A DNA stretch of 20,888 nucleotides from positions 1-20,888 of IMG/VR virus record IMGVR_UViG_3300025914_000483; one strand, given 5' to 3'. Below are positions 1-16,127 of this stretch, in pieces (position 1 is the first letter of the stretch; each line of letters starts with the position of its first letter). Origin of the DNA: a virus. Below the pieces are notes generated by a model, which saw only the letters and a program-made list of their open reading frames with translations, had not been told where the DNA came from and made no database searches. A program made the translations under genes and the position numbers.

Positions 1-555
1 CTAAGGTATCTCTATCTCCGGTTCCACCTTCACCGCTGCCGATATATACTGTATCACATCACCTGCACTATAATCCTCAAATGCTATGCGGTAGCGTATC
101 TCGCGCACACGTATGTTGTCATAGCGCTTTTCTGTAATAGCACTGCTACGCGTCAGGTAGCCGAAGTCATCACCGGGACTCCAGCCATGCAGTGCTTTAT
201 TGAGGTTCCATTCTGTGTCATAATAGGAAATGGCTTTCTCTTTATAGGTATCAGGTGTGGCCTGCCCGCTGCTGCTAAAGGGCGCAAAGCCAAGTTTCAG
301 CACCACCGTGCCCTCAGTGTTCTGTACATTTTCTGACATGTTTTGAAACTGAAAATCTTCAAAATCTATCAGCACACAGGGCCACGATACGGGCGGGCGA
401 AAGAAAGGTTTGTCATTATTTTTCAACTGGCCCATATCCTGGTCTATATAGGTAACATCTGTAACAGTACTTTCTAGACGCTGCTGTATGGCCAGAAAAA
501 GATTGGCAAAAGGAGAATTCATAAAAGATAGGGTGTGGTTAAAAAACTCCCACAT
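1..555 (-). CDS. Tail-completion or head-tail joining protein (Mu gp37-like position)
   Basis: This 184-residue protein is the last gene of the minus-strand packaging operon, and its stop codon is the first three bases of the window. No motif gives a firm family. The N-terminus (MNSPFANLFLAIQQRLES, from residue 12) followed by mixed alpha/beta sequence with a conserved-looking W-P-C-V-L-I-D segment near residues 58-64 resembles small tail-terminator or completion proteins. In Mu-like phages such proteins sit next to the DUF1320 connector and portal, so the role is inferred mostly from position. The ATG at 555 gives the full length. The ATG at 522 removes 11 residues and begins at the more typical-looking helix, so it is a good alternative start. 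The 90 bp separating it from the portal gene hold only a doubtful 22-codon ORF (627-559). Confidence 0.5.
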   Translation of the reverse strand: MWEFFNHTLSFMNSPFANLFLAIQQRLESTVTDVTYIDQDMGQLKNNDKPFFRPPVSWPCVLIDFEDFQFQNMSENVQNTEGTVVLKLGFAPFSSSGQATPDTYKEKAISYYDTEWNLNKALHGWSPGDDFGYLTRSSAITEKRYDNIRVREIRYRIAFEDYSAGDVIQYISAAVKVEPEIEIP

Positions 556-645: not shown

Positions 646-1773
646 TTATGGTTTTGGTATGCCGTAAGTATTGTACCAGTAGTCTTCAGGCACCGGCACC
701 ATCCCTGCCACTTCTTTGTCTATTTCCAGCCGTGCTTTTAGTTGTGCGTTATCCACTTCTTTAGTAAAACAAAATTGACCACCATCCACAGGGTACCCAT
801 AGCTGCGCAATATATTCAGGAATTTAGGGTCATTCAGCATGCTGATGGTGTACATCATATCGCTGCGGTGTATTTCTTTTTGCTGTTCTTCATGCACCAG
901 GCTCTGTGCATAGCCACTTCCGCTTTCTGAAACGGTGGTGCCGGTATTACCCAGTATAATGATGGACATCTCCTCATTCATAGCCCGCATAAAGGATAGC
1001 TGCAGCCTGCCGTCACCACTTACATTTTTACCATCCTTCATTTCAAAATCGGCCTGCTTGGGTATCATCAGTGCCAGCGAGCTACCGCTTTCATCCAGCA
1101 CTTTCTTCAGCTCCTGCTTGGTTTGCTCATCATAGGCATCATACTTTATCACGCGCACGGGCTGCCCAAACAATTCTATATACTGCGACCAGTCCGAGAT
1201 ATTGCCTTTTTTATACAGTGCATATGGTGCGCATTTCAACAGCAATCCCAGGTTATCATCTTCACCCATTACCCATATATTAGGTATGTCTGTATAGCAA
1301 ATACCATCGGTACCGCTTTGCTCATAGGCTATAATATCCAGGTTGGGTTTTATATGCTTGCGAGGTATCTTCAGAAAAGATAATTTCTTACCCGGCAAAA
1401 ATTCAATACCGGATATGCCCCAAAGCAATGTCTGCATAACAGTGCGCATTATATCGCGGAAGGGCAGGCTGTTTATAAGACCATCAAGGCCTGCAACCTT
1501 TCTGCCATCTTTTTCAAAATACAATTGCTTATTCAGCACCGCATCTATACGCTTGGCAATAATACCGCTCAGGTGCCCGTCCAGTATCACGTCCTCATAC
1601 AGATCATACAAGCGGCTGCGGTTGGGGTAGTAAACAGATTCGGCAGCTATATGGGCATTGCGCCAGTTGCCAATATCTTTACGTGTGCGGTCTACAGAGC
1701 GTACATTCAGCTCATGCACCACCACTTCTATTTTCTGATCTTTATCAGGCTGGGTAACAGTAACGAGTGACAT
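646..1773 (-). CDS. Portal protein, DUF935 / Mu gp29-like
   Basis: At 375 residues this looks like a short member of the DUF935 family, the portal proteins of Mu-like phages. The portal is the dodecameric ring at the unique capsid vertex through which terminase pumps DNA and to which the tail connects. Family-like features are the early stretch on a divided vertex-like region (DGHLSGIIAKRIDAVLNK, about 65-82), the W-G-I-S-G-I-E-F segment near 117-124, the F-G-Q-P-V-R-V-I-K motif near 201-209, and a Gly/Ser-rich segment near 275-289 (LGNTGTTVSESGSGYAQS) followed by H-E-E-Q-Q. Mu gp29 is over 500 residues, so this one is compact, as in related Bacteroidota prophages. It lies downstream of the terminase and connector genes on the same strand, which supports the call. 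The start at 1773 is preceded by an A/T-rich leader without a Shine-Dalgarno sequence. Confidence 0.85.
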   Translation of the reverse strand: MSLVTVTQPDKDQKIEVVVHELNVRSVDRTRKDIGNWRNAHIAAESVYYPNRSRLYDLYEDVILDGHLSGIIAKRIDAVLNKQLYFEKDGRKVAGLDGLINSLPFRDIMRTVMQTLLWGISGIEFLPGKKLSFLKIPRKHIKPNLDIIAYEQSGTDGICYTDIPNIWVMGEDDNLGLLLKCAPYALYKKGNISDWSQYIELFGQPVRVIKYDAYDEQTKQELKKVLDESGSSLALMIPKQADFEMKDGKNVSGDGRLQLSFMRAMNEEMSIIILGNTGTTVSESGSGYAQSLVHEEQQKEIHRSDMMYTISMLNDPKFLNILRSYGYPVDGGQFCFTKEVDNAQLKARLEIDKEVAGMVPVPEDYWYNTYGIPKP

Positions 1774-3296: not shown

Positions 3297-4796
3297 TCAA
3301 TATGCGCGGCCATTCGCAGGCTTTTTTATTACCATAATATTTCCTGTTGCCCTGGCGGTTTCTTTATTGTTTATCATCCACACTGCGCCTTCTACAGCAT
3401 CCGGCCCGTCATCATGCGCGCGGCTCTTCGGCGCCAGCGCCAGGAACTGTTCCTGCAGCCGTTGCATGTGCGGATTGTGTTTTTCATTTTCGTTCAGAAA
3501 AAGCTTTCCGTTCCTGTTCAATGGCTCCAGCAGACTTTCTATGCGCATAAATTTTTCAGGCTTGCCACGCCTGTCGCCTGTTATCGGTATTATTTTTCCG
3601 TTGCGTTTGCCGGTGGCATAAAATTCCTTCAGCAGTATATCCTGCAGAAATATTTCTTCCATATAGTAGTAGCAGTTGCATTCACCTACCATTTGCATCA
3701 GCGTATAGTGCCAGTCTATCATACGGGCGGTAGTGGTTTGCTCCAGGTAACATTTTATTACATGAAACTCATCCTGCCAGCGGCCCACCAGTACAGTAGC
3801 CTTATAGTCGTTGCTGCGCGTGTCTTTAAAAGAAGGGTCAGTATAGCATACCAGCATAGCATAGTCGCGCAATGGCCGTGCAGGCTTGTACGCCATCTCC
3901 GCAAACACAGAACCTTCAATAACAGGGTTATTAAAATACTCCTTTTGCGCAGCCGCATAGCTTTTCTGGCTCAGCACACGTTCTATGTCCAGCTCCGTAT
4001 TTTTCTGCGGCCACGATGAGCGCCCGTCCGCATCACGTATATTTATCTCGTCCACATGGTCAGCTATTTTTGTAGCACGCTCTATACAGCAATCCGTAGC
4101 TATACGGTTGCCGCAAAATATAATAAGCGTAGCGGCAGATATGGAGCGCGTACTTATAGCAGCTTCTTCTATCCACTTCCATTTTTTGGCCACTATTTCC
4201 GGATTATGACAATCAGCGTCTGTATCTATATCGTCAAACAATATTATGTCAGGCCTTACCTCTTCATTGCGCGTGCCACGCGGGCTTTGCCCTGCACCCA
4301 GCGCACGGAAGGCCACACCTTTGTTGGTGATAAATTCTTCCGCCTTCCATTTGCCGCTCTGCTCTTGTAATCCATAGTCCTGTATAATACGCTGGTTATA
4401 TTCCAGGTTAGCACGATAGGGCATAAAGAGGCGCGTAGCATTGTCCAGGCTATTGCTTATTAGCAGCACATATTTCTTCTTACCTGTCAGGCACAGGTAC
4501 AGCACTTCCATCATGGTACGCGTGCTTTTGGCCAACTCACGGCTCCATATACGCAGCTCGCACCACTCAGGGTTTTCAAACACGCGTTTGGTAGCAGCAA
4601 GATGAAAATCAGCCGGACTTGCAAAAGTGTACTTAGGAAAATAGTAATGGAACCATGCCTCACTATCCGCCTCTAGCCTCGCCATACGCTGACGCTGCTG
4701 CTCGCTTGTCTCCAGCAGGTTTATAGGCGTGGCGTCTATTATGTTTTTCACATATTCACGCCAGCCGTCTAGTTCCTGTTTCTCTGTCTTTCCCAT
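3297..4796 (-). CDS. Terminase large subunit (packaging ATPase and nuclease)
   Basis: This 499-residue protein is the motor that cuts concatemeric or integrated phage DNA and pumps it into the prohead through the portal. The ATPase half shows a variant Walker A, SRELAKST at residues 85-92, a Walker B of hydrophobics plus acids, DIILFDDID at 183-191, and a coupling motif F-C-G-N-R at about 227-231. The C-terminal RNase H-like nuclease half has the first catalytic-type Asp in V-C-Y-T-D at 320, an E-E pair at 380-381, and the late acidic motif H-D-D-G-P-D-A at 461-467. Length and motif order are those of a full, intact terminase of Mu-like phages. The start at 4796 lies 2 bp beyond the stop of the small subunit, so the two are probably translationally coupled. 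Confidence 0.92.
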   Translation of the reverse strand: MGKTEKQELDGWREYVKNIIDATPINLLETSEQQRQRMARLEADSEAWFHYYFPKYTFASPADFHLAATKRVFENPEWCELRIWSRELAKSTRTMMEVLYLCLTGKKKYVLLISNSLDNATRLFMPYRANLEYNQRIIQDYGLQEQSGKWKAEEFITNKGVAFRALGAGQSPRGTRNEEVRPDIILFDDIDTDADCHNPEIVAKKWKWIEEAAISTRSISAATLIIFCGNRIATDCCIERATKIADHVDEINIRDADGRSSWPQKNTELDIERVLSQKSYAAAQKEYFNNPVIEGSVFAEMAYKPARPLRDYAMLVCYTDPSFKDTRSNDYKATVLVGRWQDEFHVIKCYLEQTTTARMIDWHYTLMQMVGECNCYYYMEEIFLQDILLKEFYATGKRNGKIIPITGDRRGKPEKFMRIESLLEPLNRNGKLFLNENEKHNPHMQRLQEQFLALAPKSRAHDDGPDAVEGAVWMINNKETARATGNIMVIKKPANGRAY

Positions 4797-4798
4797 GC

Positions 4799-5242
4799 TT
4801 ATACTTTTTTCAGCTCCTCTTTTATGTAGGCATCAAAATGCAGTGCCACAGTTTTTGCTAGTTCTAGGTCAGCCATTTGCAGGCGGTTTATGAATTTCTT
4901 TGCTACCTCTATTATCTGAGTTACGCTGCTTTCTGTTTCCAGGTTCTTTATGGCGCTGGTGTATTTTATTACCAGGTCTGCATCTTTCGTATTGTCGGCA
5001 CCATTTTCCTTTATGCGTGCGGTTATAGTTTCCAGTATATCATACAGTATATTCAGCTGCACTTCTTTCGATGTAAGCAATGAGCGGCGAATACCCTCCC
5101 AGTTACCTTCCTGTATCCACAGCCGCAGTTCCTCTTCACTTGCCCCGGTCTTTAAGGCTATATCTTTTATAGAAAGATCGAAACGGGTAAACAGCAGCTG
5201 TGCCCATTCCTTTTTCTGACCGCCTGATAAACCATCTTTCAT
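4799..5242 (-). CDS. Terminase small subunit (DNA-recognition, DUF1804-like)
   Basis: I place the start at the ATG at 5242 (147 residues, MKDGLSGGQKKEWAQLLF). The upstream ATG at 5278 would lie inside the apparent promoter and adds an unlikely N-terminus. Residues 15-50 form a helix-turn-helix: LSIKDIALKTGASEEELRLW followed by W-E-G-I-R-R-S-L-L. This is the usual DNA-recognition element of small terminases. The rest is helical, with a segment (KNLETESSVTQIIEVAKKF) typical of Bacteroidota DUF1804-like subunits. The protein selects the packaging site and hands DNA to the large subunit encoded immediately downstream. A stretch of tandem palindromes starts 48 bp upstream of the gene and could be its regulatory region or, less likely, its packaging site. 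Confidence 0.85.
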   Translation of the reverse strand: MKDGLSGGQKKEWAQLLFTRFDLSIKDIALKTGASEEELRLWIQEGNWEGIRRSLLTSKEVQLNILYDILETITARIKENGADNTKDADLVIKYTSAIKNLETESSVTQIIEVAKKFINRLQMADLELAKTVALHFDAYIKEELKKV

Positions 5243-5246
5243 ATCA

Positions 5247-5279
5247 CAAAGGTCATTTGAAAGACAGCGTACCAACAAA
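5247..5279 (-). promoter_or_regulatory. Putative Bacteroidota-type promoter for the packaging operon
   Basis: Reading the minus strand, TTTG (5279-5276) is followed after 21 bp by GACCTTTG (5254-5247), which matches the Bacteroidota -7 consensus TAnnTTTG at all but its first base. The -33 element lies 10 bp below the end of a palindromic block. The implied transcription start, about 5-8 bp past 5247, falls at or next to the ATG at 5242, so the transcript would be nearly leaderless. That is a weakness of the call. Confidence 0.45.
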
Positions 5280-5289
5280 TTGAAAAAGT

Positions 5290-5338
5290 ATGCTACCGCA
5301 TTTACTGCAGTGGCTTACCGCAATAACTGCGGTAGCAT
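5290..5338 (-). repeat. 49-bp double-palindrome block, copy 1 (candidate operator)
   Basis: The block opens with ATGCTACCGCA and closes with TGCGGTAGCAT, so its ends are inverted repeats. Inside are two roughly 22-bp units. The distal one, relative to the minus-strand promoter, has arms GCTACCGCA and TGCGGTA around the centre GTTAT. The proximal one is more degenerate. The block ends 10 bp upstream of the TTTG of the packaging-operon promoter. A second block of the same length lies at 5598-5646 in the opposite orientation. Dimeric regulators bind such sites. Confidence 0.8.
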
Positions 5339-5597
5339 AGAAAAAAGTTTGCAGCATTCATGCGGCTTTGAGACTGTTTTGCAGAGGTAGTAAAACAGGC
5401 TGTTTTCTTATAGTGAATTTAGGTGATGTATTGTTTGAACAAAACTGCGCCCATTTATCATTTCAACTTCAAATCACTTGCAAAAAATGCAACAAAACAC
5501 CCCTCCAAACACCCCATTTTACTTTAAAAATTTCCTCGGGTTACAGCGCTATGTATAACCAGCTCATAAACAACCCTTCATCCCAGAAAAAAGTTTT
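5339..5597. other. Non-coding spacer between the two palindromic blocks
   Basis: This 259-bp stretch separates the two operator-like blocks. I see no convincing gene. A plus-strand 91-codon ORF across it (5368-5643) runs into the second block and has no leader or family resemblance. The 12-mer AGAAAAAAGTTT occurs near each end, at 5339-5350 and 5585-5596, in direct orientation. The A-tracts may bend DNA, but this could be chance. Confidence 0.6.
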
Positions 5598-5646
5598 ATG
5601 CTACCGCAGTTATTGCGGTAGCTTACCACAGTTACTGCGGTAGCAT
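5598..5646 (+). repeat. 49-bp double-palindrome block, copy 2 (candidate operator)
   Basis: The outer 13 bp are a perfect inverted repeat (ATGCTACCGCAGT and ACTGCGGTAGCAT). The distal inner unit is a perfect 9-bp-arm palindrome, GCTACCGCA-GTTAT-TGCGGTAGC, at 5600-5622. The proximal unit (TACCACAGT / ACTGCGGTA) is imperfect. The first 23 bp are identical to the reverse complement of the far end of copy 1, so the two blocks carry a strong distal and a weaker proximal site in the same order relative to their own promoters. Confidence 0.85.
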
Positions 5647-5657
5647 AGATTTCTGAT

Positions 5658-5688
5658 TTTGCAGGCGTTCCCAGGCATCTCATCTTTG
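5658..5688 (+). promoter_or_regulatory. Putative Bacteroidota-type promoter for the capsid/tail operon
   Basis: TTTG at 5658-5661 and CATCTTTG at 5681-5688 are separated by 19 bp, close to the TTTG / TAnnTTTG arrangement of the Bacteroidota primary sigma factor. Only the first base of the -7 box deviates. The element lies 11 bp below palindromic block 2 and 22 bp above the protease ATG at 5711, leaving a short leader. Confidence 0.55.
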
Positions 5689-5710
5689 TGTCAGAAATAA
5701 CGGTTTACCT

Positions 5711-6706
5711 ATGACCCCACAGGAAAAATTCAAAAAGATAAACAAAGAGTATGTGCTGTCGGACAGCACAGTAAATGAATACGGCTTTCGCCTGCTTACC
5801 GAAGGCTACCAGCTCGATGAGTTTCGCAAGAACCCTATAGGCTATTATATGCATCGCCGCGAAGATGGTGTGGCACTGAAATGGGATGAGCTGCGTATTG
5901 AAAATGATAAAGTAGTAGGCATACCGGTCATCAACCTCTCAAATGAAAGAGGCGAGCAAACTTATGACGAAGCAGAAAATGGTTTTCTTAATGCAGCATC
6001 TGTAGGCCATATAGTGGTGCTTGAATATTCTACCGATCCGCAACTAATGCTGCCTGGGCAGACAGGCCCTACCATCACAAAATGGTACAACAAAGAATGC
6101 AGCCTGGTGGATATTCCCGGCAATGGCAATTCGCTTACTAAGCTGTACGATGCACAGGAAAACGAAATAAACCTGGTAGACCTGCATACAGAAACCTTGC
6201 TGATTAAAAAGCCTGCAACAACGCTGCCTGATTTGTATAGTGTGCTGAAGCTTGAAGACAATGCAGATGAGCATACTGTACTGGCAGCAGTAAAGCACCT
6301 GGCACTGAAAGCCGAAGAGCTGGAGCTGGATAATAACAAGCTGCGCAACGACCGCAATAACCTGCGCCAGCAGATAGACGATATAAACAGGGCACATACA
6401 AAATACGAAGTAGCAGCCCTGCTGGACAGCGCCCTTGAAGACAAAAAGATAACCCTGGAGCTGAAAGAAAAGCTGGCGCTGGACTATGCGGATAATCCGG
6501 AAGGATTGAAAAACCTCATCAGCGCTATGCCCGCCTATCGCTCTATAGTAGAGAACCTGAAAGCTACTGAACGTGATAAAGCAGAGCTACAGTGGAACTG
6601 GGATGCCTTTGAGGCCAATGACCCCAGCGGCAGAAAGCTGCGCGAGCTGAAGGCGAACAACCCAGACCGCTACCGCGAAATATTTAAAGAAAAGTTTGCT
6701 GGATAA
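5711..6706 (+). CDS. Prohead protease fused to scaffold
   Basis: This 331-residue protein combines a capsid maturation protease with a scaffolding tail, like Mu gpI and its internal scaffold product. The protease half carries H-R-R-E-D-G at 48-53 with a candidate catalytic His48, N-A-A-S-V-G-H at 94-100 with a candidate nucleophile Ser97, and ECSLVDIPGNGNS at 129-141, the hallmark strand and loop of phage prohead proteases. From about residue 195 to 230 there is a charged coiled coil (LKAEELELDNNKLRND and on), followed by a helical C-terminus ending in RYREIFKEKFAG. That is the expected scaffold region on which the coat assembles before cleavage. It is the first gene of the plus-strand operon and lies just below a candidate promoter and operator block. 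In most Mu-like phages the coat gene would follow directly; here a foreign cassette intervenes. Confidence 0.88.
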   Translation: MTPQEKFKKINKEYVLSDSTVNEYGFRLLTEGYQLDEFRKNPIGYYMHRREDGVALKWDELRIENDKVVGIPVINLSNERGEQTYDEAENGFLNAASVGHIVVLEYSTDPQLMLPGQTGPTITKWYNKECSLVDIPGNGNSLTKLYDAQENEINLVDLHTETLLIKKPATTLPDLYSVLKLEDNADEHTVLAAVKHLALKAEELELDNNKLRNDRNNLRQQIDDINRAHTKYEVAALLDSALEDKKITLELKEKLALDYADNPEGLKNLISAMPAYRSIVENLKATERDKAELQWNWDAFEANDPSGRKLRELKANNPDRYREIFKEKFAG

Positions 6707-6806: not shown

Positions 6807-7529
6807 ATGAATCTTCCGAAGAAAATAACACCAGATCCCTTGGTGCAAGCTTCTGTGGAAATAAGGGTACAAACTACGCTAAACGCTGATTCTGTTTTAG
6901 AAACCTTATATCCCATTTTTGCAAAAGATTTTCCAAAGGTTAAACCGCATGATATACCTTCATTGATTCGCCAAAATGAAGGACTTTATGCTCCTACCTT
7001 TCTTTTTAGGAATGAAAAGTACTCAATTGGCGTAGCCCATAACACGATTTTGTTTGAAATCATTAATGGTTATGAATCTTGGGATATTTATTTTCCGATA
7101 ATTTGCGAAAATTTAGATAAAATAAACAAACTCAATATAATAAAAGGAATAAGTAGAATTGGCATTAGGTATGCAAGTGTGTTCGAAACTGAAAGTGATT
7201 TGTCGAAAATAGTAAATTTTACATTCGCAAATGATATGTCAGAACAAGGTTTTAATCAAACATTACAGGTGTATAACGCCGTATATACTAAAGAAAAAAC
7301 CCAAATTGTTTTGCAGCTAGCTGCAAATGCAATGATCGCAAATTCTTATGGTGTTGTTAAAAATGGCCCTTATATAGATATTGACTGTTCAGTAACCAAC
7401 ATTAATGGAACAACATTTGATGAGAATGTTTTCAGTTTAATTAAAGAATTACACGACGATGAGAAAAATATTTTTTATTCTCTGATCAAAAAGGATTTTT
7501 TACAAACACTTAATCCGCAATATTCATGA
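6807..7529 (+). CDS. TIGR04255-family protein (cassette gene 1)
   Basis: This 240-residue protein has the look of TIGR04255, a sporadically distributed family of unknown function. The signs are the N-terminal P-L-V-Q-A-S-V-E-I-R-V strand (residues 11-21), a G-Y-x-x-W motif at 88-92 followed by a helix, the central G-I-R-Y-A-S-V-F strand at 119-126, an I-D-I-D-C-S strand near 193, and the C-terminal helix with L-H-D-D-E-K-N-I-F-Y ending in L-N-P-Q-Y. It is not a known virion protein. Its DNA is about one-third GC by eye, against nearly half in the flanking capsid genes, and codon choice differs, both signs of separate acquisition. It overlaps the next gene by the four bases ATGA, so the two are translated together. 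Function is unknown; host-interaction or anti-phage roles are speculation from context. Confidence 0.75.
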   Translation: MNLPKKITPDPLVQASVEIRVQTTLNADSVLETLYPIFAKDFPKVKPHDIPSLIRQNEGLYAPTFLFRNEKYSIGVAHNTILFEIINGYESWDIYFPIICENLDKINKLNIIKGISRIGIRYASVFETESDLSKIVNFTFANDMSEQGFNQTLQVYNAVYTKEKTQIVLQLAANAMIANSYGVVKNGPYIDIDCSVTNINGTTFDENVFSLIKELHDDEKNIFYSLIKKDFLQTLNPQYS

Positions 7530-8131
7530 GCGACCAACCAACTTTACCTATGAAACAAATATCATTAGTGGCGTTAATGACACTTGCTTCCATTTCACAG
7601 CCAGTAACTGGTACTTGTGCGACTTTTCAAACGTCGTTATGTAATACAACTGAGCCAACTTATTCGGCTGGATTATATAAGGCTTTAAAGAAACAAGAAG
7701 GAAGCGCAACAGATACTTATGAAGACGGCACTTATACGACAATAATGAAGTCTATTCAAGAAAACCCTATAAATGTTGAAATATCGAAGCGAATAAATGA
7801 AATTGCCAGTTTAAACTACAATTGGGATGGTTATAATGCCGTGACGCCTGAACCAATTGTTTTTTTAAATGTTTATAATTTTTTGAAAAGTTTACCCACA
7901 TATGTGATTGGCAATTTGAATAAAGATGAGATCACGCCTACTCCCTACGGTACAATTGTCCTGGATTGGAATAAAAATGATGAGCTAGTTTCTGTTGAAA
8001 TTGGTGAAACAGAATGTGGATTTTTCTCCGAATTTAATGATAACACTAATATGGAATTAGATGCCATCCCTTTTACAAAAGATCAAATACCTTTTCAGTT
8101 GGCTACGGCATTTGAAAAATTATATTGCTAA
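7526..8131 (+). CDS. NWDGY-motif protein with N-terminal hydrophobic segment (cassette gene 2)
   Basis: This 201-residue protein has no named family that I can assign with certainty. Its central region is distinctive: I-N-E-I-A-S-L-N-Y-N-W-D-G-Y-N-A (motif NWDGY at 99-103), then a helix F-L-K-S-L-P and the strand pair PTPYGTIVLDW at 138-148. From memory, small proteins with this pattern often sit beside TIGR04255 genes, which fits the neighbour here. Residues 9-33 form a hydrophobic, signal-like stretch (MKQISLVALMTLASISQ), so the protein may be membrane-attached or exported. The Met at residue 9 (7550) is a possible alternative start, but the ATGA overlap with gene 1 favours 7526. Base composition is AT-rich like gene 1. 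Confidence 0.7.
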   Translation: MSDQPTLPMKQISLVALMTLASISQPVTGTCATFQTSLCNTTEPTYSAGLYKALKKQEGSATDTYEDGTYTTIMKSIQENPINVEISKRINEIASLNYNWDGYNAVTPEPIVFLNVYNFLKSLPTYVIGNLNKDEITPTPYGTIVLDWNKNDELVSVEIGETECGFFSEFNDNTNMELDAIPFTKDQIPFQLATAFEKLYC

Positions 8132-8687
8132 TTCTTTTAAAGTAGAAATACCACTTAATGTAAATGATGAAGAATTAATCGTGAGGGGTATTTTGCATCC
8201 CTTATTCATCGATTCTAAGTCTAAGTTTAAGAGAGAAGCTTTTTTGCCTCCATTTAATAGGAATGATGTGTCCTTATTGAGGAGAAAGTATACAAACGAT
8301 TCCTTTTGTAAAGATCACTGTGCGTCGCTGAGAATTTCCGGTAACAAATATTTAGGAATGGCAACATTTATTGCATGTCATGTTGATGAAATAAACAAAT
8401 CCTCAGATATTTCTGTAAAACCTAAGCTTGTCGCGACTCCTCTTAATGAAGAAAAAGAGATTATCGCAATTACACCAGTTTATAAGACAACAAGAGGATT
8501 ACCAATGCATGCAGATTTGCTTTATCCGAGCCCTTTAATAAAGGGGCAACCAAATACACAATATCGGAAATTTGCGAACGAAATGATTAAAATTGCTAAT
8601 TATTTTCCGGATCCAAAGCCAGACGAAAAGGGATGGGAAGGGTCGCCTTTAAATTGGGAAAAGAAAGAAAATCACCTCGAGGGATAA
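8061..8687 (+). CDS. Unknown cassette gene 3 (HP...AH-type protein)
   Basis: As drawn from the ATG at 8061, this is a 208-residue protein overlapping the previous gene by 71 bp. Residues 1-24 are then read from DNA that also encodes the end of gene 2. A TTG at 8112, or another later start such as GTG at 8181, could be the true beginning, because the recognisable part starts near residue 39. That part reads I-V-R-G-I-L-H-P-L-F, then a Lys/Arg-rich segment with AFLPPFNRNDVSLLRRKY (60-77), a C-x(3)-C pair near 83-87, and M-H-A-D-L-L-Y-P at 149-156. The pattern of a HP-containing strand, a downstream S-L/S-V stretch and a late H-A motif resembles a third protein I associate with TIGR04255 loci, but I cannot name it. 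It ends the AT-rich cassette. Confidence 0.65.
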   Translation: MPSLLQKIKYLFSWLRHLKNYIANSFKVEIPLNVNDEELIVRGILHPLFIDSKSKFKREAFLPPFNRNDVSLLRRKYTNDSFCKDHCASLRISGNKYLGMATFIACHVDEINKSSDISVKPKLVATPLNEEKEIIAITPVYKTTRGLPMHADLLYPSPLIKGQPNTQYRKFANEMIKIANYFPDPKPDEKGWEGSPLNWEKKENHLEG

Positions 8688-8792: not shown

Positions 8793-9701
8793 ATGGCAAT
8801 TCAAAAAGAAATATGGGAAGACCATATAGAGGGGAACCTCTTTAAAAACAATGAATTTTTACTTGCATCTACCGACGCCAGCCAGTATGTACTGAATGGC
8901 AAGGTAGTACACATTCCGCAGGCCGGCGCTACGCCTACCGTAGTGATGAACCGCTCTTCCCTGCCTGCTACGGTAGTGCAGCGTGTGGACACGGACGTGA
9001 CCTATGTGCTGAATGAATTTTCTACAGACCCGATACTGATACCACAGGCCGACACGCTGGAGCTGAGCTACAACAAGCGCGAGAACATACTGAGCGAATA
9101 TGAATCGTCTCTGCGCCAGCTCACTGCAGACAATCTATTGGTCTCATGGGCGCCATCTACAGCTGCAGGCATCATACGCACTAGTGGCGCGTCGGTAGCT
9201 TCTCACCTGGAAAGCACTACCGGCACACGTAAGAAATTCACCACAACAGATCTGAAGTATGCACAGCTGACGCTGAACAAACAGAATGTACCGCTGGAAG
9301 AACGTTATGCACTGCTGAGTGCTGACATGTTCCAACAGTTGACAGATGACATGAGCCAGACACAATACCGCGATTTCTCTGCAGCCTTCGATGCAAAGAA
9401 TGGCATACTCGGCCAGCTTTTCGGCTTCAAGATTATGATGCGCAGCAATGTAACCGTGTTTGACAATAGCGCTACGCCTGTGGTAAAAGCTGTAGGCGCC
9501 GCTGCCGCTGCTGATGACAACGATGGTGTACTATGCTGGCAGATGAACGCAATAGAACGTGCCTTGGGCGACATTACCTTCTTCGAAAAAATTGGTGACC
9601 CGCTTTATTATGGCGATATCTATAGCGTATCTGTACGCATGGGTGGCCGCAAGCGCCGCGCCGATGAAAAAGGTATTGTAGCAATTGTGCAGACTCCTTA
9701 G
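8793..9701 (+). CDS. Major capsid protein (HK97-fold expected)
   Basis: This 302-residue protein is the shell-forming coat protein by sequence flavour and position after the protease/scaffold. The N-terminal arm (MAIQKEIWEDHIEGNLFKNN) leads into strands V-V-H-I-P-Q-A-G and V-Q-R-V-D-T-D-V-T-Y-V-L-N-E-F-S-T-D-P near 62-80. The spine-like helix (SYNKRENILSEYESSLRQL) is near 92-110, and a basic C-terminal strand with G-G-R-K-R-R-A-D-E-K-G-I-V ends the protein. The length and the strand-helix order fit coat proteins of Bacteroidota Mu-like prophages. No separate decoration protein is obvious next to it. The leader is A/T-rich without Shine-Dalgarno sequence. Base composition returns to the ordinary phage level here, in contrast to the cassette upstream. 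Confidence 0.85.
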   Translation: MAIQKEIWEDHIEGNLFKNNEFLLASTDASQYVLNGKVVHIPQAGATPTVVMNRSSLPATVVQRVDTDVTYVLNEFSTDPILIPQADTLELSYNKRENILSEYESSLRQLTADNLLVSWAPSTAAGIIRTSGASVASHLESTTGTRKKFTTTDLKYAQLTLNKQNVPLEERYALLSADMFQQLTDDMSQTQYRDFSAAFDAKNGILGQLFGFKIMMRSNVTVFDNSATPVVKAVGAAAAADDNDGVLCWQMNAIERALGDITFFEKIGDPLYYGDIYSVSVRMGGRKRRADEKGIVAIVQTP

Positions 9702-10023: not shown

Positions 10024-10455
10024 ATGTTCTGTACAAAAGTGAATGCAGAAATAAAATCTGCCCTGAAACAATTTGACCAGTATGTGGATGCGCATATTGA
10101 TACTGCCCTGCAGATAACCTCGGCATTGAAATCCATGCTGACCTCGCCTGCTGCCGATATTATCACTGCCATTATACCCGGCAGCGCTGATGATGTGTTG
10201 CGCACACAGCTATTGAATGCGCTGACTAAAATAACAGAAGCGCTAAGCATAGTAGATAGCTGCAAGCAATACACCGATTTGAATGATAAGCTGAAATGCT
10301 TTGTGCAGCAGCTAAGCCAGCGCGATCCCAAGCTGCAGGATGCTATACTGTTAAAACTATCAAGCCTGCTGGCTGCAGAGCTGGATGGACAGAAGCTGAA
10401 ACAATCATTATACGATTTGTACACACAGGCCAAATATGTTACAGCCAACAACTAA
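10024..10455 (+). CDS. Helical protein of unknown function
   Basis: This is a 143-residue protein that appears almost entirely helical, with heptad-like leucines (LKQFDQYVDAHIDTALQ, LLNALTKITEALSIVDSC, ILLKLSSLLAAELDGQKL). It has cysteines near residues 3, 80 and 90 and one hydrophobic patch (ADIITAIIPG near 44-53) too short for a reliable membrane span. I recognise no family. It follows the membrane coiled-coil gene by 26 bp with an A-rich leader and shares composition with the structural genes, so it is probably a phage gene of the late operon. Confidence 0.65.
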   Translation: MFCTKVNAEIKSALKQFDQYVDAHIDTALQITSALKSMLTSPAADIITAIIPGSADDVLRTQLLNALTKITEALSIVDSCKQYTDLNDKLKCFVQQLSQRDPKLQDAILLKLSSLLAAELDGQKLKQSLYDLYTQAKYVTANN

Positions 10456-15093: not shown

Positions 15094-16127
15094 TGTTTGT
15101 TTTAAAGAGCAATATTTCAATAGGCGTTCCGGGGAAGCAACTGCAGTTCACAGGCGTGCATGAGGTGACCATTAGAAAGAGCATACATAGCTATATAGAT
15201 ACAGCAACTATTAAGCTGCCTTCTATAGCCTGGCTGCACACAAAAATCAACAGCTCAAATCCTAAAAAGGTAATTACCGGTGCGCAGTTTAATGATGGCG
15301 ATCCGGTTAATATCAGCCTTGGATACAACGGCGATATGCAGGAAGAATTTAGTGGCTTTATAAAAAGAAGAAATCTGAACATGCCGCTAGAAATAGAATG
15401 TGAAGGGTATAGTTATAAACTCAGACGAAATAATATTAGTGGCTCATGGGCTTCAATATCAGTAAAAGATTTGCTGAAGAAAGCAACCGATGGTTTGGGT
15501 ATTACACTTCAGGTAAATACAGATATCAGCCTTAACAACGTATTAGTTTCAAACTGGACCGCTGCACAGGTAATAGACTTTATATTGAAGGAAACCGATG
15601 GCTGTATCTCTATCTTTTTCATTCAGCCAACCATATTATGGGCAGGCCTGGTGTATACACCGTACTCAAATGGCACAGATGTGTTTAACAAATCAACCAT
15701 TAGCTATAGACTTGGATATAATGTGGTAAAAGACAATAGTTTGAAACTGCGGGTGCCGGATGATAACCCTGTTAAAGTGAATTTTAGTAAAAAGCTAGCA
15801 ACCGGCGAAAAGCTAAACGGATCATCTGATGCCACAGAAGCAGCAATAATAAGAAATTACCGAAAGGTACTGAATCATATTGCCTCGTCACCTGTGTTAA
15901 AAATGCTGGCCCAGGAAAAGCAAAAGCGATTCAACTACACAGGCTATGAGGGGAGAATAAACGCTTTTCTGCAACCATATGCACTACCCGGTTATAAGGC
16001 AAATATGCAGGACACACAATACCCGGAAAGAAATGGAGCTTACCTGGTAGAAGGGATAGAAGTGGTATACGGAATGGGAGGCGCCAGGCGAGTAATAGAA
16101 ATTGGTCCGCAAATAGGAGGCAAATAA
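15093..16127 (+). CDS. Baseplate hub protein, gpD / Mu gp44-like
   Basis: This 344-residue beta-rich protein is the likely trimeric hub (phage T4 gp27, P2 gpD, Mu gp44 group) on which the spike sits. Features include the N-terminal barrel strands (L-Q-F-T-G-V-H-E-V-T-I-R-K-S), N-D-G-D-P-V-N-I-S-L-G-Y-N-G near 69-82 followed by F-S-G-F-I-K-R, Y-S-Y-K-L-R-R-N-N-I near 105-114, and the middle L-L-K-K-A-T-D-G-L-G-I-T-L. The F-x-G-x-I pattern after a Gly-Tyr strand is typical of hub domains. The start overlaps the previous stop by one base (TAATG) and its own stop overlaps the next start in the same way, so three genes form a coupled run. Confidence 0.75.
   Translation: MFVLKSNISIGVPGKQLQFTGVHEVTIRKSIHSYIDTATIKLPSIAWLHTKINSSNPKKVITGAQFNDGDPVNISLGYNGDMQEEFSGFIKRRNLNMPLEIECEGYSYKLRRNNISGSWASISVKDLLKKATDGLGITLQVNTDISLNNVLVSNWTAAQVIDFILKETDGCISIFFIQPTILWAGLVYTPYSNGTDVFNKSTISYRLGYNVVKDNSLKLRVPDDNPVKVNFSKKLATGEKLNGSSDATEAAIIRNYRKVLNHIASSPVLKMLAQEKQKRFNYTGYEGRINAFLQPYALPGYKANMQDTQYPERNGAYLVEGIEVVYGMGGARRVIEIGPQIGGK

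Follow-up and report, generated by a model that had tools for sequence, protein, structure and literature searches.

The gap between the divergent late operons of a Mu-like Bacteroidota phage holds two palindromic blocks, each of which consists of three short cores exactly two turns of DNA apart and lies at a fixed distance upstream of an outward-facing promoter. Arrays of this kind, with the same offset, are conserved in related phages, occur solely at the late gap in most of those scanned, and are tied to the presence of one gene, c27. On balance, we favour the interpretation that they serve as operators for a late regulator encoded by the phage; this regulator would most likely be an activator, and c27 is its most likely gene.

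Palindromic arrays in the late intergenic gap

The window, that is, the whole stretch of DNA analysed, comprises 20,888 bp and is the entire IMG/VR record. Its gene content identifies it as part of the genome of a Mu-like Bacteroidota phage, with matches to the Mu portal, Gp36, a Mu-I-like protease, a DUF2586 sheath and baseplate genes. A 468-bp gap, which holds both blocks, separates a leftward packaging operon from a rightward protease/capsid/tail operon. The former opens with a terS-like small terminase gene (4799–5242, minus strand; phrog_4151, DNA-binding protein), found in the same cluster and the same place in 31 of the 31 phages compared; it also includes terL, encoding the large terminase (3297–4796, minus strand; phrog_38), and the Mu gp29-like portal gene (646–1773, minus strand; PF06074), and its last member is a cluster 6 gene (1–555, minus strand), with c27 lying convergent to it just past the left end of the window. 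The latter opens with a Mu I-like protease/scaffold gene (5711–6706, plus strand; phrog_11321 and a weak match to PF10123) and includes the major head protein gene (8793–9701, plus strand; phrog_267). Three open reading frames between the protease and capsid genes (6807–8687) lack Pfam matches, are absent from relatives and are likely to be cargo.

The original prediction had described the blocks as 49 bp long, each holding a near-perfect distal and a degenerate proximal palindrome. They are real rather than chance features: three sites in the window match the 23-bp palindrome within three mismatches, as against none in 100 shuffles. Each block in fact spans 51 bp; the difference between the distal and proximal palindromes is borne out in both, and the distal part is, as proposed, identical once each block is read toward its own promoter (the first 24 bp are the same). 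Because each block is a dyad in its own right, the two can be aligned in either orientation: inverted, with 66-nt arms at 79%, and direct, at 87% over 53 nt. The smallest repeat unit is better described as three palindromic cores per block at an exact, two-turn spacing of 22 bp, and the two 23-bp palindromes correspond to the facing halves of adjacent cores. In array A, on the terS side (5289–5339, minus strand), the cores occupy 5289–5295, 5311–5317 and 5333–5339; in array B, on the protease/capsid side (5597–5647, plus strand), they occupy 5597–5603, 5619–5625 and 5641–5647. The core is a palindrome of 7–11 bp, GGTAnnnTACC-like in the window and TATSATA in other phages. Three phased sites fit the blocks better than the one dimer per block envisaged originally. 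A search of viral contigs for the exact palindrome pattern returned 19 scattered single matches. Midway between the arrays, a segment of ~46 bp (5513–5558) is near-identical in three close relatives, although the surrounding spacer differs; no function was found for it.

Each array stands above a pair of TTTG elements. On the terS side (minus strand), the −33-like TTTG (5276–5279) ends 13 bp past array A, and the −7-like TTTG (GACCTTTG; 5247–5250) ends 42 bp past it (41–42 in relatives); on the protease side (plus strand), the corresponding elements, at 5658–5661 and 5685–5688 (CATCTTTG), end 14 and 41 bp past array B. In Bacteroidota promoters, the −33 and −7 elements are 19–21 bp apart. The pairs in the window, with 27–29 bp between their ends, agree in spacing with the housekeeping promoter consensus of this phylum (−33 TTTG, −7 TAnnTTTG; PMC7366714) but lack the TA of the −7 box, and are thus candidate promoters of this type. 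The fixed placement of each block above a TTTG pair, as originally described, is borne out. Across phages of quite different sequence, the −7 TTTG ends 41–42 bp past the array on 23 of the 24 sides read, the offset being exactly 41 bp past the outer core, or 42 bp on the terS side of the window's clade. The −33 TTTG is missing in many relatives, and its frequent absence, together with a −7 box without TA, is consistent with a weak, activator-dependent promoter. The terS start codon lies only 4 bp after its −7 TTTG (5242–5250), as it does in L163 and L182, and the terS mRNA is probably leaderless in the window's clade.

Conservation of the arrays among related phages

Relatives with the same gene order mostly carry the palindromes, an outcome that largely favours the original prediction. 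Both blocks lie at the same positions in three close relatives (L004, L005 and L162; terL 87–88% identical), where the outer arms have changed together in both, from TATGCTACC..GGTAGCATA in the window to TATGGTACC..GGTACCATA. More distant phages (terL about 45–55%) have a single array, of other sequence and with the 41-bp offset, in a gap of 100–200 bp; in L027 and L039, it reads TATGATACC-n-TATCATA-n-TATGATA, and that of the isolated Elizabethkingia phage TCUEAP3 is similar. The divergent terS/protease layout is common to nearly all of the surveyed phages with a readable gap, and the gap dyads score well above shuffles in many of them. Most relatives have just one array, which lies between the two promoters and serves both, whereas the window's clade has two. 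Additionally, array A is accompanied by an inward-facing −7-like TTTG (5378–5381, plus strand; 42 bp from the array, with a partner TTTG ending at 5351), possibly a second protease promoter, or the relic of one, that relatives have lost. Since it is absent there, it suggests that the window's clade acquired its two arrays through duplication of one ancestral array.

The top-scoring three-core array coincided with the late gap, and not with early or repressor regions, in G002, G015, G019, G022, G025 and G029; the TATSATA motif had no clear match anywhere in G005, G007, G013, G027 and G031. In G005 (the record of L010), which carries c27, a strong direct repeat of 22 bp (CTCAAGTACTTTCTACTTTCGG) lies close to the start of the protease gene, at about 15385–15450, in place of TATSATA cores. 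In the early region of G013 (L139), a block of four small genes occurs twice in a row, through either tandem duplication or an assembly artefact. In a Taibaiella prophage (L163, 9305–9584), the terS array is kept and the protease gene is no longer its divergent neighbour.

A candidate regulator at the end of the early operon

In relatives that retain more of the left arm, the early operon encodes a repressor, MuA-like and MuB-like proteins, and others. Its last gene is convergent with the packaging operon and is c27 in one class of phages, whereas the other class usually has c32 or c71 there; one of these occupies that place in most phages in which the region is present. A 5-kb contig (L006) matches the window at 99.5% identity over 4,475 bp and continues into c27 (4479–4784 of the contig, minus strand); the window ends 4 bp short of the gene. 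The search for a co-conserved DNA-binding protein, suggested with the original prediction, yielded a candidate, c27.

The two classes differ in the geometry of the gap. With no motif assumed, 41 direct-repeat lags were compared; the strongest was 22 for the phages with c27 (z 5.2), as against 21 for those with c32/c71 (z 4.5). The score for three TATSATA cores peaks at a spacing of 22 only, and in the c27 group only; as the motif was derived from this group, the evidence resides in the dependence on spacing rather than in the score itself. Likewise motif-free, the distance across the gap from CAAA to TTTG recurs at 133 bp among the c27 phages (12 of 23, against a shuffle maximum of 4); among the 30 c32/c71 phages, it recurs at 131 bp (12 phages) and 89 bp (10 phages), against a shuffle maximum of 6. 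Promoter-to-promoter distances cluster at 133 bp in the former and, in 21-bp steps, at 89, 110/111 or 131 bp in the latter; judged by eye, 89 bp corresponds to one dyad, 110/111 bp to about two sites and 131/133 bp to about three. The distance is 131 rather than 133 bp in the c27 phages L202, L210 and possibly L010, and the array is unreadable in L165, L172, L174 and L213.

Among 66 gene clusters in 20 phages, only c27 perfectly marks the 22-bp class (9/9 versus 0/11; p = 6 × 10−6), with c32/c71 as its exact complement; this test left out the ambiguous c27 phage G005, with which p becomes 3 × 10−5, and counting strict 133-bp distances only gives p = 8 × 10−5. Counted by locus, the 133-bp distance is found in 17 of 19 c27 phages and 1 of 30 c32 phages. 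On the terL tree, the c27/c32 class switches only two to four times, with one supported independent pair, and part of the association is therefore attributable to common descent. Within a mostly c32 clade, however, the Bacteroides phages L199 and L200 combine c27 with the 133-bp distance. L214, a locus to which only its c27 gene had led, carries TATCATA-type cores spaced 22 bp apart, with TTTG at exactly 41 bp. The further out-of-sample c27 loci gave a distance of 133 bp (L217), a spacing of 105 (L216) and no readable array (the aforementioned L213), and no terS was seen in the stretch retrieved for a fourth (L215). Of the annotated isolates with c27, L211 fits exactly and L210 is the 131-bp case noted above.

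The c27 protein has ~100 residues and belongs to PHROG 17154 (unknown function), with no match in Pfam or NCBIfam. For both the c27 and c32 families, sequence searches of the PDB and Foldseek searches with models returned nothing significant, and a comparison of the two profiles indicated no homology (2.5%). The AlphaFold model of c27 is all-helical, with five helices (pLDDT 85); the solved structures closest to it are for the most part helix-turn-helix DNA-binding proteins, Mu C among them, all with Z ≤ 6.1 against a noise guide of 8, and we predict from the model that c27 is helix-turn-helix-like. The c27 homologue is labelled 'transposase' in hankyphage genomes PV107404, PV107405 and PV107407 and hypothetical in others; the former label is probably a misannotation of a DNA-binding regulator.

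Proposed mode of action and relation to known systems

How c27 might act is inferred from this arrangement. Produced last from the early operon, c27 would bind the palindromic cores, probably as dimers, and, with the cores two DNA turns apart, the bound units would line up on one face of the helix. The outermost unit would then contact RNA polymerase at the weak −7 TTTG promoter, a fixed 41–42 bp away. A single array would drive both divergent late operons at once in most relatives; in the window's clade, the putative duplication would have provided one array per operon. Activation by direct contact with RNA polymerase, by analogy with Mu C in function, is what the upstream position, the fixed phase on both sides, the weak or missing −33 element of many relatives and the early-encoded last gene point to. 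Comparison with relatives supports the earlier proposals that one regulator would act on both late operons from upstream of Bacteroidota-type promoters, and that it would more likely activate than repress, in the manner of Mu C. The DNA looping that was also suggested is unneeded and has been dropped, because one central array serves both promoters in most relatives.

The main alternative is that the arrays bind a repressor, CI-like or c27 itself, that silences both late operons in the prophage. Palindromic multi-site operators are typical of repressors, and in the related hankyphage, most genes are under the control of the CI-like RepC (PMC12135933). Nevertheless, we judge this to be improbable: the sites lie upstream of the −33 element and do not overlap the −7 box, and a repressor needs neither a strict 41-bp offset on both sides nor quantization in steps of 21 or 22 bp. 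Moreover, G015, G022 and G025 cover the repressor gene as well, and in all three the array occurs at the late gap only; both the phasing and this absence from the early regions argue against repression. It is also unlikely that some other factor, such as a host protein, TerS or another early phage protein, occupies the arrays, with c27 and c32 co-varying through ancestry alone. TerS, encoded next door, is a predicted DNA-binding protein, and the c27/c32 classes do track the terL tree with few switches; however, neither TerS nor the other shared early genes distinguish the classes, as they are present in each, whereas it is with c27 versus c32/c71 that period and distance vary. L199 and L200 have c27 and the 133-bp distance within a mostly c32 clade, and the site sequences differ between related phages, which is not what a shared host factor would lead one to expect.

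Two further explanations concern the blocks as structures in their own right. The palindromes are strong dyads, whose pairing is kept in relatives by compensatory changes, and might be taken for RNA hairpins in a leader or terminator of the late transcripts. This is very improbable, given that there is no Rfam match and that helical phasing with the promoter is a property of DNA; furthermore, the palindromes lie upstream of the −33/−7 boxes of both outward promoters and are thus absent from those mRNAs. Similarly, two inverted 51-bp repeats around 257 bp of non-coding DNA recall the recombination sites around a promoter that can be inverted, a mechanism of phase variation in Bacteroides, or the ends of a small mobile element. 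We attach almost no weight to this possibility, as the window and three close relatives display a single orientation, most relatives have only one array, and both blocks face outward promoters at a fixed offset.

The preferred reading, activation by c27, has its closest parallel in phage Mu, where C is required for late gene expression (PMC4461284). Mu C is the last regulator before late expression and binds upstream of its promoters (Plys, PI, PP and Pmom); c27 is proposed to act alike, and its position as the last gene of the early operon is analogous to that of Mu gene C. The structure of Mu C in its transcription complex (9l0x_I) superposes weakly on the c27 model over 57 residues (Z 5.5, rmsd 3.2), on a par with unrelated helix-turn-helix proteins. 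By sequence, membership of c27 in the Mor/C family was rejected: the profile (PF08765) matched in none of 40 related phage records and in none of the 23 c27 members. Unlike Mu C, which uses one site, the arrays described here have one to three phased sites, with one set serving two divergent operons; the promoters also differ, being of the Bacteroidota −7 TTTG type, whereas the Mu C site at Pmom overlaps the −35 element.

The gene order of the window's phage is also that of the Bacteroides transposable hankyphage (p00 and jmh43). Hankyphage p00 encodes a c27 homologue (10177–10446 in BK010646; L209) and has a degenerate array of three cores; TTTG lies 41 bp from it toward terS, and the box on the protease side is TTTC. 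Only the CI-like RepC has been studied in this phage, and no late regulator is mentioned in the passages searched. Phage-encoded late activators are a known kind of regulator; the open literature searched contained nothing on late regulation in Mu-like phages of Bacteroidota, and no description of the layout, the shared bidirectional array, the 21/22-bp classes or either protein family. A broader proposal, which we find plausible but advance tentatively, is that c27 and c32/c71 represent two unrelated, undescribed families of late activators that swap at the same locus. Each would assemble on tandem sites at a characteristic helical step, 22 or 21 bp, and dock RNA polymerase at each end, turning on two divergent late operons at once, with distances quantized by the number of sites (one, two or three).

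Hankyphage, a prophage widespread in the gut, is difficult to bring into its lytic cycle under laboratory conditions. The arrays and c27 would provide a late-gene switch open to experimental test in a large group of Mu-like phages of Bacteroidota, hankyphage included, and a likely function for protein families now annotated as 'hypothetical' or 'transposase'. They also offer a natural series of promoters in which the number of sites and their helical phase vary.
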